The position numbers were made by a program, and so were the translations under genes. Shown here piece by piece: positions 30,279-33,863 of a stretch of DNA of 64,000 nt. The stretch comes from Scytalidium lignicola (taxonomy: Eukaryota; Ascomycota; Leotiomycetes): assembly GCA_002812745.2 (NCBI GenBank), contig NCSJ02000026.1, positions 62,001 to 126,000 on the forward strand, given 5' to 3'. Every line of letters starts with the position of its first letter. Within the stretch, counting starts at the first letter, position 1. The notes beneath the pieces were generated by a model. That model worked only from the letters and a program-made list of their open reading frames with translations, made no database searches and was not told the DNA's origin.

Positions 30279-30601
30279 TTATTTCTCCTCAACATCAATG
30301 TTTGGGTGATATGGTGGTTGAACTCTCTTATCTACAACATCAATATTCGGGTGGTATGGCGGTTGAACTCTCTTGTCTACAACATCGATGTTTGGGTGGT
30401 AAGGCGGTTCAACTCTCTTGTCTACAACATCGATGTTTGGGTGATATGGCGGTGGAATTCGTTTCTCGATGATATCTGAGCCGAATCAACAATTATACAT
30501 ATATATGTGGCTTAGAGACATAATCACATACCAGCCCCTAGGTTAAGGGGAAGAGCAGTTACTACTGCACTTAAGATGACGGTGAACAAGAAAGCCTTCA
30601 T
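30279..30601 (-). CDS. Kex2-processed repeat precursor of a putative dikaritin-type RiPP
   Basis: Two exons, 30601-30532 and 30475-30279, joined by a 56-bp intron (gtatgt...ctcag), give 88 residues. Residues 1-16 (MKAFLFTVILSAVVTA) form a clear signal peptide, and a short leader ends in KR. Four repeats follow, three of 15 residues and a last of 14, each with PPYHPNIDV. The first three end VVDKR and the last ends VEEK before TAA. Repeat heads vary as IP, VE, VQ, VQ. Dibasic KR sites are Kex2 targets in the Golgi. This architecture is that of UstA/PhomA-type precursors, from which the Tyr-containing core is released and cyclised. The divergent neighbour is a UstYa gene. Product and activity are unknown. 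Confidence 0.88.
30290..30470 (-). repeat. 45-bp tandem repeat coding for the KR-bounded peptides
   Basis: Four units of 45 bp in phase with the precursor frame. The units differ by few substitutions (for example cag/gaa codon at repeat position 2, aatatt/aacatc for Asn-Ile), pointing to recent amplification or homogenisation. Confidence 0.9.
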
Positions 30602-31614
30602 GATGGATTAATTAGGTGTGCTTTATGATGGTAGTAACAAGGTTAATTCAATAATGCATCCTTGAGAAGAGTGAAAGTTCTAGCTTTATATACTTTCTCT
30701 CAACTGTTGATCTGCACAAGTCTACGTACTACTTTCATCAACGTATAGAATCACTCTTAGTCGTAGGTCTCGCAGCCTTATCCTGAATTCAAACCCGAGC
30801 TTCCTTATGTATAATAGTCAGTCCCGCTGAAGCAATAATACCTGCCATTTTTATCGGTCTTTATATAGTATCAAAACCTAAACAGATGTGCTACGCTTTG
30901 CCTTTTTCGCCTTCCTTTCATGTCTTAGCACTAAAATCAATGATTTGAACAGATTGAGGGGAAGACTCACTACGGACCCACTCCCACATGCTCCAAGAAG
31001 GACCTGAAAACTGATAGTAATCGATTGATTGAGTATACCATATCCGTATTAACTTTGTCACTAGATGAACAATATTAAAGATTTAAATGATGTTAAGCAC
31101 TATTAAATAAGGGCTCAATTTAAAACAGTAAAAATCAATATTGTAATATTATGTGAAGGAATATTTGATATAGTTTCTTAAGCCTTGGGCTCTAGTGGCA
31201 TGTAAGTTTAGGAGCTAATCATCTAGCCTAATTAATTATTCTCTTTAGCTTAGTCTAAATATTATGACTAGAATTAATCTATTTCGTATTGTTGCCTCTT
31301 ACATAACCTCACAGTCTTTCTTGAATAGGAAGGTCAATTATACCATGCCTAGCGGTGAGGGATTATTGGATGCAGCCATGTAAGAGAATCACGTACATAC
31401 ATTAGGATAATCTTAGAAGTACAGTGATAGTGCTAAGAGCATTTAGGAAGGTACTGCTTAATTGATGTAAGTTAGAATCGCTAATATAAGAAACTAAAAT
31501 TGAGATGATTCTACTATTCTCAGGACGATTCCTGTCTAATATAGACCTCTAGGAGTCTACGACGCTTCGCTTCTCTAATTTTACTTCCATCCTTGGTCAC
31601 CAAGCAGTCTCATC
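30602..31614. promoter_or_regulatory. Divergent intergenic region of the RiPP locus
   Basis: 1,013 bp separate the start codons of the precursor (minus) and UstYa (plus) genes. The DNA is AT-rich and no other gene is seen. It should hold both promoters. Confidence 0.55.
30684..30693 (-). promoter_or_regulatory. TATA-like box of the precursor gene
   Basis: On the minus strand the bases read gtatataaag, 83 bp before the precursor ATG, a usual place for a TATA element in fungal promoters. Confidence 0.5.
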
Positions 31615-32520
31615 ATGTTTTCTAGTATCCCGAAATACTTGCCGGTGTCGTATATGGGCGATGATTCGAAGGAGGAGATAGTTATGTTCTCTCGAGACAC
31701 GAGTCCTCGGCCTAGGGTGGCAAATAGATGGCCACGAACTCTGACAATTTTAAATATAACACTGTTCATAATGTCAATCATTTTTCTCACCTATAGTGTT
31801 GGGGCTCGGCGCACATACAATAACACCTCATCGGGCTTTGAAAGTCATATTGGTTAGTAGCGATATTTGTACTGTAGATTAGAGTACTCAGTTAATGAGA
31901 TACTAGCGCCGGTTGTCGAACCTTTCGCTACTCCCACGGAGCATATATTTATCGACAATGAGCTATTTGGGAACTCCATTTTCCGCGAGCTTCCGAGTCC
32001 TGAGGTTGATGCAGCATGGGCAGCCATTACTCGGATGGGAGTCACAGCTGTCACCAAAAGTGATATTGTGCGCGCGGGAAAAGACCCAGCATATGTTGTG
32101 AAACACCCAAAAGACCCAGATGCATATATGGTGATGATAAATGTCAATCACCAGCTCCACTGCCTCAATAGTATCCGAAAAGCCATGCATCCAGACTACT
32201 ACTATCCAGATGGTGTCGATTCACCATTATATCACGATCACTTATACCACTGCGTGCATTTGATACTACAAGTGCTGACATGTAACAGCGACCTTGACCT
32301 CGTAACCTTTAACTGGGTGGAGCAAATAGACACACCGCAACCAGATTTCTCTGTTAACAAAGTTTGTCGAAACTTTGAGAGACTGAAATCTGCACAAGAT
32401 GCAGAGTGGATGCGACTTGAGGACTTGATGGTATGGCCCAAGAATGCTGGAGAGGCTGAGATACCTATTTGGGATGAATATCTTGAAAGGTTAGGGTTAA
32501 AAAACTCAACAAATAGCTAA
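31615..32520 (+). CDS. UstYa-family (DUF3328) oxidase
   Basis: Two exons, 31615-31852 and 31907-32520, give 283 residues. The first has a polar N-terminus, then one membrane span (about residues 43-63, LTILNITLFIMSIIFLTYSV). A 54-bp intron (gttagt...tactag, phase 1) removes two in-frame TAGs and joins to 'APVVEP'. The second exon has 'LPSPEVDAAW' and both diagnostic motifs, HQLHC (161-165) and HLYHC (191-195), with the 'YYYPDG' spacer between. UstYa proteins are thought to be copper-dependent oxidases that install the ether or C-C macrocycle on dikaritin core peptides. It lies about 1 kb from the KR-repeat precursor and is transcribed away from it. Confidence 0.9.
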
Positions 32521-32732
32521 GATATTTCTCAGTTTATGTATTTGTAGTTGTATATATTGTAGATCATGGCCTTCGAGAGAACACGAGGGCTGCGGAGGCT
32601 AGCACCGCCAATAAAGATGTTGCTTAGTTCGAGCAACCCTCCAACTTTCCCAGCTACGCAATCGTAACGACCTTGAAGTCTGCATATCTCCCTTGAGTCA
32701 AAATCATCTTTAATCGTGCCACCACTATCACC
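32521..32732. other. Short spacer in the RiPP locus
   Basis: 212 bp between the UstYa stop and the reductase start; no gene. The two plus-strand genes are close but have separate starts. Confidence 0.5.
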
Positions 32733-33701
32733 ATGAAGCTTGTGATCGGTGGTTCGACCGGCTTTGTCGGTGCGGAGCTCGTCCGCCAAGGTCTTGATAA
32801 TCCAGCCATCACCTCCCTCGTCGCTCTCAGGCGGCGCGAGATCACCGACCCGCCAGAGCCCGGACCCTCCGGCACAAAGCTGAGGTCAGTCGTCTGCGAC
32901 AACTTTGAGATCTATTCCGACGGCGTTAAGAAAGAGCTAGAGGATGTGGATGCCTGCATCTGGTATGGCCTTTCTCCTTGTGTCATCTTCACTACTTTTT
33001 CAACACCTTTTCATTTCATATCTTACGCCTTCCGTGGTTCCCCTTCTCGCGTGGCAATAGGTGATCAATCAGCTCAGCGTAGTTTCATAGTTTTATGAGA
33101 GAAGTAACTGACCTAGAAATAGGACCATCGCCGTGACACCGTCGAAGCTCAAGACCATACCATTTGAGGAGACATGCAAGATTTGCCGTGACTACGCCAC
33201 CACGGCTATCCAGACTCTTGATGCCCTCCGTCACCAGAAAGACGGACCGTTGCGTTTTATCTACATGAGCGGCCATTTTGCACCCCGCAGCCAGTCTGAG
33301 GTGCCGAAAGAACTGCGCGACCACGGCCTCATCGACTACGGCCTATTACGAGTATGTATGGATAAATGAGCTAACGCACGTACTTGGCCATTCTCCCCAG
33401 TCTCTTTTTTTAGTTTCCTTTGCCTCCGACTATGTTACATATCAATGCTAATGGGCTGCTTTAGGGCGAAGCAGAGACGCAAATCCTCGCATACGGAGAG
33501 CAGTCCAACGGCGCTGTCCAGTCCTGTGTCGTAAAACCTGGGCTCATCAACGCTCCCGGCAAGGAGAAGCGGTCTATCCCTGGCCTGCCGAGCATCGACC
33601 TGCTGGACATCTCAGCAGCCTTGTTAGACCAGATCGTTAACGGGTTCGAGAAGGACACGCTGAGTAATGCTGACATGATCCGGATTGGACAGAAAGCTTA
33701 A
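32733..33701 (+). CDS. NAD(P)-binding atypical SDR/epimerase-like reductase
   Basis: Three exons, 32733-32962, 33123-33351 and 33465-33701, give 231 residues. The start MKLVIGGSTGFVGAELV carries the GxxGxxG nucleotide-binding loop at residues 7-13. Later parts include 'FIYMSGHFAP' and 'SCVVKPGLINAPG', typical of small fungal NAD(P)-binding epimerase-like proteins. No YxxxK motif is obvious, so activity is uncertain. It is co-oriented with UstYa, 212 bp away, and may act on the RiPP or its side chains; membership in the cluster is inferred from position only. Codons are GC-richer than the surrounding island. Confidence 0.8.
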
Positions 33702-33710
33702 GTCTTAATA

Positions 33711-33861
33711 CAGTCCCCCCCCCCTGAATCGGTGTCGAGTGGCAAGATTATATAAGCTATTAAAGCCAATCAAAATGGTAGATTCTAGAAAATTCTTTTT
33801 GTAATTGGCTATTATACCCTGGTTCACTTTGCCACTCGACACCGATTCAGCGGGGGGACTG
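33711..33861. mobile_element. MITE with TA target duplication (Tc1/mariner-like)
   Basis: A 151-bp element with terminal inverted repeats of about 33 bp. Left end cagtcccccc then tgaatcggtgtcgagtggca; the right end is its complement except for C-run length and one base. It is flanked by TA at 33709-33710 and 33862-33863, the duplication made by Tc1/mariner transposases. There is no coding capacity. It begins 9 bp after the TAA of the reductase gene. Confidence 0.9.
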
Positions 33862-33863
33862 TA

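Follow-up and report, generated by a model that had tools for sequence, protein, structure and literature searches.

Does a secreted repeat protein encoded next to a single UstYa gene form, together with that gene, a unit for making a crosslinked peptide? This question is raised by a locus at positions 30,279 to 33,701 of a 64,000-nucleotide stretch of the Scytalidium lignicola genome (contig NCSJ02000026.1, positions 62,001 to 126,000; the whole stretch is called the window below). The original prediction, made from the DNA letters, was that it makes a ribosomally synthesized and post-translationally modified peptide (RiPP) of the dikaritin type with as few as three genes. Our analysis indicates that the locus is likely a dikaritin-type RiPP unit made up of two genes, with a downstream reductase-like gene as a probable bystander.

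The precursor gene

The features of the two genes are as follows (window positions).

30279..30601, minus strand: precursor gene, encoding a Kex2-processed repeat protein (KEP) of 88 aa; ATG at 30601; gene model read from the sequence
30532..30601, minus strand: precursor exon 1, with a signal peptide of about MKAFLFTVILSAVVTA (predicted cleavage) and the start of the leader; based on hydropathy
30531-30476, minus strand: precursor intron, 56 nt, borders GTATGT...CAG
30475-30279, minus strand: precursor exon 2, the rest of the precursor including the repeats
30290..30457, minus strand: tandem array of a 45-bp unit, reading IPPPYHPNIDVVDKR, VEPPYHPNIDVVDKR, VQPPYHPNIDVVDKR and VQPPYHPNIDVEEK-stop; the last unit extends to 30279
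30602..31614, no strand: intergenic region of 1,013 bp that separates the precursor gene from the divergently oriented UstYa gene
31615..32520, plus strand: UstYa (DUF3328) gene, exon 1 31615-31852, exon 2 to 32520
32149..32163, plus strand: first HxxHC motif (HQLHC), from sequence and alignment
32239..32253, plus strand: second HxxHC motif (HLYHC), from sequence and alignment

The spliced precursor reads MKAFLFTVILSAVVTALPLNLGADIIEKR, followed by the four repeat units listed above. One intron is required in this gene, because the unspliced reading has a stop between the ATG and the repeats, and exon 1 is predicted to be joined to exon 2. The N-terminus is hydrophobic and resembles a signal peptide, as judged by hydropathy alone (nine-residue maximum 2.67). 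After the leader, whose last residues are EKR, come four repeats, each 14-15 residues long, with the pattern [I/V]xPPYHPNIDV. KR precedes each of the four repeats, and repeats 1-3 also end in KR. The same array was called independently by Tandem Repeats Finder (30290-30457, period 45, 3.7 copies, score 259). The protein thus has what defines a KEP, namely a signal peptide for the endoplasmic reticulum (ER; by hydropathy) and tandem repeats split by Kex2 sites. Tyr5 is present in all four repeats and is followed by an invariant His6. The first residue after KR is beta-branched in every repeat (I, V, V, V), residue 2 is variable (P, E, Q, Q), and there is no Cys in the whole precursor.

Repeat positions 3-11 are identical in all four repeats, while the codons differ. 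Over codons 3-12 there were 23 synonymous differences at 41.0 sites versus 3 nonsynonymous differences at 139.0 sites, giving proportions of 0.561 (pS) and 0.022 (pN) when summed over the six non-independent repeat pairs. Differing codons with identical residues argue that the core has been conserved at the protein level and that the repeats are not recent duplicates. As a check on chance, the window was mononucleotide-shuffled 50 times, and a six-frame scan found no KR-bounded similar repeats in the shuffles.

The core sequence was claimed to be new, and it was not found in any of 5.8 billion proteins or in the literature searched, which upholds the claim. Among these proteins the whole precursor gave one shared-word candidate and no relative at E 1 or better. 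In the genome searched (46.85 Mb, 664 contigs, with the window's contig labelled C188), the precursor matched only itself, and no second copy was present. It seems to be unannotated in public data.

The UstYa gene and its pairing with the precursor

The predicted pairing of a secreted KR-repeat precursor with a UstYa gene was confirmed, the two genes being divergent and 1,013 bp apart. The region between them is a possible shared promoter. The UstYa protein matched PF11807 over residues 32-245 with 161.7 bits (cut-off 25, E 3.1e-47), so the proposed check on the family came out positive. Both HxxHC motifs are there, as had been stated, and they are invariant together with two further Cys in 15 of 15 aligned proteins, an alignment that includes the public fused model of the window's own gene (described below). 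One hydrophobic stretch, residues 45-63, is likely a membrane anchor. The intron acceptor is ambiguous, being either 31891 (39-nt intron) or 31906 (54 nt, implied by the public protein and read by hand); a third candidate, 31903, was rejected since there is no AG at its end. The domain bearing the HxxHC motifs is identical under acceptor 31891 or 31906.

A protein search with UstYa returned 14 proteins. The closest was B7463_g2296 of S. lignicola itself (97% identity over 72% of the query), and a metagenome relative showed 77% identity over 56%. In named species other than S. lignicola the best match was from Cordyceps fumosorosea (41% over 56%).

Two properties expected of dikaritin loci were found together here: a UstYa protein with two HxxHC motifs encoded beside the precursor, and a Tyr in every core. 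The locus also fits the definition used in KEP surveys, which asks for a signal peptide and for tandem repeats with Kex2 sites, and it has a DUF3328 gene as its neighbour as well. Across 1,461 fungal strains, one such survey reported 7,878 KEPs; 1,758 of them had a DUF3328 gene within the nearest 15 genes, most commonly directly next to the precursor gene (PMC7329392, 2020). Where a DUF3328 gene was nearby, 65.6% of repeats contained Tyr, versus 38.2% where there was none (PMC7329392). Scytalidium is listed there under two tabulated KEP types, the pheromone type and the di-histidine type (PMC7329392). That survey was built on annotated proteins (PMC7329392), and one from 2019 on 250 secretomes (PMC6339444).

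To estimate how often such a neighbour would occur by chance, UstYa genes were counted in the genome. There were 54 exon matches, which merged within 600 bases into about 37 places on 27 contigs. For strain DSM 105466 a draft of 47.7 Mb in 826 contigs was published, with 12,795 AUGUSTUS genes and a mean GC of 41.7% (PMC6256649); in size and contig number it is somewhat unlike the genome searched here. With 37 places among 12,795 genes and random placement assumed, the chance of a UstYa neighbour on either side of the precursor is about 0.6%.

This number bears on another explanation, in which the KEP yields linear secreted peptides for signalling or defence, and UstYa lies next to it by chance or acts on another substrate. 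In the 2020 survey, 6,120 of the 7,878 KEPs had no DUF3328 gene within 15 genes (PMC7329392), and UstYa genes are numerous in this genome. However, the small probability of a chance neighbour, the invariant Tyr and the divergent gene layout all speak against linear peptides. Leotiomycete alpha pheromone types have two conserved Cys (PMC6339444), whereas this precursor has none, and a pheromone precursor was rejected for the same reason. We consider linear peptides an unlikely outcome.

Several observations weigh against the dikaritin-kind reading. The signal peptide, the intron and the four repeats of the original prediction stood, but KR does not bound the last repeat on both sides, since repeat 4 ends in EEK-stop. 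With about 37 UstYa genes in the genome, the pairing with the precursor could be incidental, and UstYa proteins are active in non-RiPP pathways too (PMC12048977). As no relative of the precursor was found, its linkage to UstYa was not seen conserved in a second species. A Pfam scan confined to long exons of the window recognised neither a peptidase nor a methyltransferase. None of the 11 tyrosinase matches in the genome lies on contig C188, in an exon-wise search that weak exons can escape.

Proposed maturation of the peptide

We infer processing, crosslinking and secretion of the peptide, as well as any role its product may have. The signal peptide would direct the precursor into the ER, and a Golgi kexin would cut after KR. 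The genome has one match to the kexin P-domain, on contig C80, so cleavage would depend on a kexin encoded elsewhere. Trimming of the trailing KR would leave cores of about 13 residues, [I/V]-[P/E/Q]-PPYHPNIDVVD. For cores of residues 1-13, the calculated masses for repeats 1-3 would be 1474.746, 1492.720 and 1491.736 Da when linear, and 1472.730, 1490.704 and 1489.720 Da with one crosslink. The membrane-anchored UstYa would then oxidatively crosslink the invariant Tyr5 by means of its two HxxHC motifs, and the crosslinked peptide would be secreted. DUF3328 enzymes reportedly employ oxygen and a dicopper site (PMC12186524). The crosslink would most likely be an ether that ties Tyr5 to a beta carbon, either that of the beta-branched residue 1, which is the polarity of epichloecyclins, or that of Ile9. 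Our favoured guess is Tyr5 to residue 1, because residue 1 is always beta-branched, residue 2 is variable and Tyr is at position 5; Tyr5 to Ile9 comes second.

Epichloecyclins (gigA, Epichloe) resemble this locus in the signal peptide, the kexin-bounded repeats and the UstYa-like gene, a likeness drawn from their description and not from the gigA sequence. The epichloecyclin crosslink connects an N-terminal Ile with an internal Tyr (PMC9233826); here residue 1 is I or V and Tyr is at position 5, with the core ends assumed. Of the four genes in their cluster, one encodes a kexin and one is a DUF3328 gene (PMC7317419), and their repeats have 27 residues, whereas the repeats here have 15 residues and the only kexin domain found is on C80. 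Asperipin-2a of Aspergillus flavus is produced with four genes (PMC10512285) and is alike in its single UstYa, its repeat precursor and the small number of genes. Its reductase and transporter have no convincing counterpart here, the adjacent reductase-like gene having been compared by description only.

Ustiloxins and phomopsins also share a repeat precursor, the UstYa family and a Tyr in the core. Their link is between a Tyr at the N-terminus and an internal Ile (PMC9233826), the core motif is EDYxI (PMC6339444), and a tyrosinase and two or five UstYa proteins (PMC7329392) are involved. In contrast, the core here is PPYHPNID without EDYxI, there is one UstYa, and the contig has no tyrosinase match. 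An ustiloxin or phomopsin orthologue was rejected on the absent EDYxI motif and the missing tyrosinase match on the contig.

The claim that a cluster smaller than known ones would itself be new was not supported, since the epichloecyclin (gig) cluster and the reconstructed asperipin-2a pathway have four genes each. It is also weak because the commonest DUF3328 position in the 2020 survey adjoins the precursor gene. The locus is a fresh candidate in an established, crowded class, and a compact precursor/UstYa pair is not new in kind. A bolder version would be a self-sufficient two-gene pathway, with one copper UstYa, a kexin in trans and a crosslink of an uncommon kind that would create a new ring class from a Pro/His-rich core. 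Such a crosslink might, for example, run from Tyr5 to Val/Ile1 or include the adjacent, invariant His6. We regard this version as rather unlikely.

Neighbouring genes and other loci

One further gene lies within the locus.

32733..33701, plus strand: gene for an NAD(P)-binding, reductase-like protein, exons 32733-32962, 33123-33351 and 33465-33701; probably outside the pathway

It had been counted as a member of the cluster. In a three-gene variant it would act on the peptide like the reductase that, along with a transporter, takes part in asperipin-2a maturation (PMC12048977), and it does lie on the same strand as UstYa, 212 bp downstream. The protein fell below the cut-off of PF13460 (18.3 versus 27.2 bits), and it has relatives on four other contigs of the genome. 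A search returned 118 proteins, with nine named fungi at 71-79% identity over the full length: Tricladium, Aspergillus, five Penicillium, Talaromyces and Biscogniauxia, which we take to represent Leotiomycetes, Eurotiomycetes and Sordariomycetes. Some relatives bear the name FMP52. UstYa, on the other hand, reached at most 41% in named species besides S. lignicola. The gene is therefore probably a bystander and not a pathway member, because it is widely conserved in fungi whereas UstYa is not; this contrast is suggestive rather than proof, as it comes from word-based searches of differing reach. Its membership was thus not confirmed, and we judge a role as pathway enzyme, with the three-gene variant, to be quite improbable.

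The public model B7463_g2296 is a single protein of 431 residues that fuses UstYa with the reductase (window 31615-33701). It omits the end of UstYa, which the metagenome relative retains (VWPKKAG...LGLKN). Two separate genes are the better model because the relative holds this end; the fusion was rejected and is probably an annotation artefact.

Elsewhere in the window Pfam recognised genes of ordinary kinds: WD40, epimerase-type, DUF3425, short-chain dehydrogenase, 2-hydroxyacid dehydrogenase, PP2C, Frag1-type, eisosome protein, glyoxalase-domain, GH71, urease, PLP decarboxylase, ABC transporter and P450. The scan covered 17 other long exons and could miss genes split into short exons. The ABC transporter (51-55 kb) and the P450 (59-60 kb) are about 20-30 kb from the locus.

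Just after the reductase gene, at window 33709-33863, lies an element of about 150 bp resembling a miniature inverted-repeat transposable element (MITE), with CAGTCCCCCC inverted ends and flanking TA. The genome has nine near full-length copies, the window's included. Two intervals of about 2 kb share its ends (C168:30670-32651 and C47:26086-28064) and may represent a parent element, which we presume from the TA and the ends to be of the Tc1/mariner type.

The locus could also be a decayed or silent remnant, its last repeat lacking KR and its tailoring genes gone. The surroundings at 27-32 kb are gene-poor with a GC of 0.37-0.41, below the rest of the window, a MITE-like element lies just downstream, and no other pathway gene was recognised. 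However, this GC differs little from the 41.7% mean of the genome and so is weak evidence. All frames are open, the splice signals are usual, the core is conserved at the protein level and the UstYa motifs are intact. A remnant is very improbable in our view.

A six-frame repeat scan of 42 sources (260 kb) found one place only, seen in the window and three overlapping loci. At a looser threshold, four further ten-kb stretches gave a second precursor on C521, with two other-frame readings of the same array, and nothing in the remaining three. The scan was thus able to find such genes. It covered 13 of 29 ten-kb stretches around UstYa genes and most other UstYa places with 1.5-kb flanks, with at least three places outside it (C340 about 26.2 kb, C228 about 12.4 kb and C44 about 91.6 kb). 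Further precursors beside other UstYa genes may have escaped it; the C521 precursor appeared only in a ten-kb stretch.

The C521 precursor (stretch L042:7336-6902, minus strand) has a signal-peptide-like start and seven QTPDNGNYVYFDKEKR-type units, of which one reads YVDF and the last is incomplete. It is flanked on both sides by UstYa matches, which span 127.9-138.1 kb of that contig, and the locus resembles a dikaritin cluster that is larger and more typical. At C228:9068-12657 a tyrosinase match and a UstYa match are 2.8 kb apart and may belong to a cluster of the ustiloxin kind.

No more than five dikaritins were on record by 2022 (PMC10512285), although candidate loci in the catalogue of the 2020 survey exceed a thousand (PMC7329392). 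The locus studied here suggests that surveys of annotated proteins can miss such loci, as its UstYa was fused to a neighbour and its precursor is seemingly unannotated. With a single UstYa and short, near-identical cores, it would offer a tractable enzyme-substrate pair for studying how these copper enzymes choose the residues that they join.
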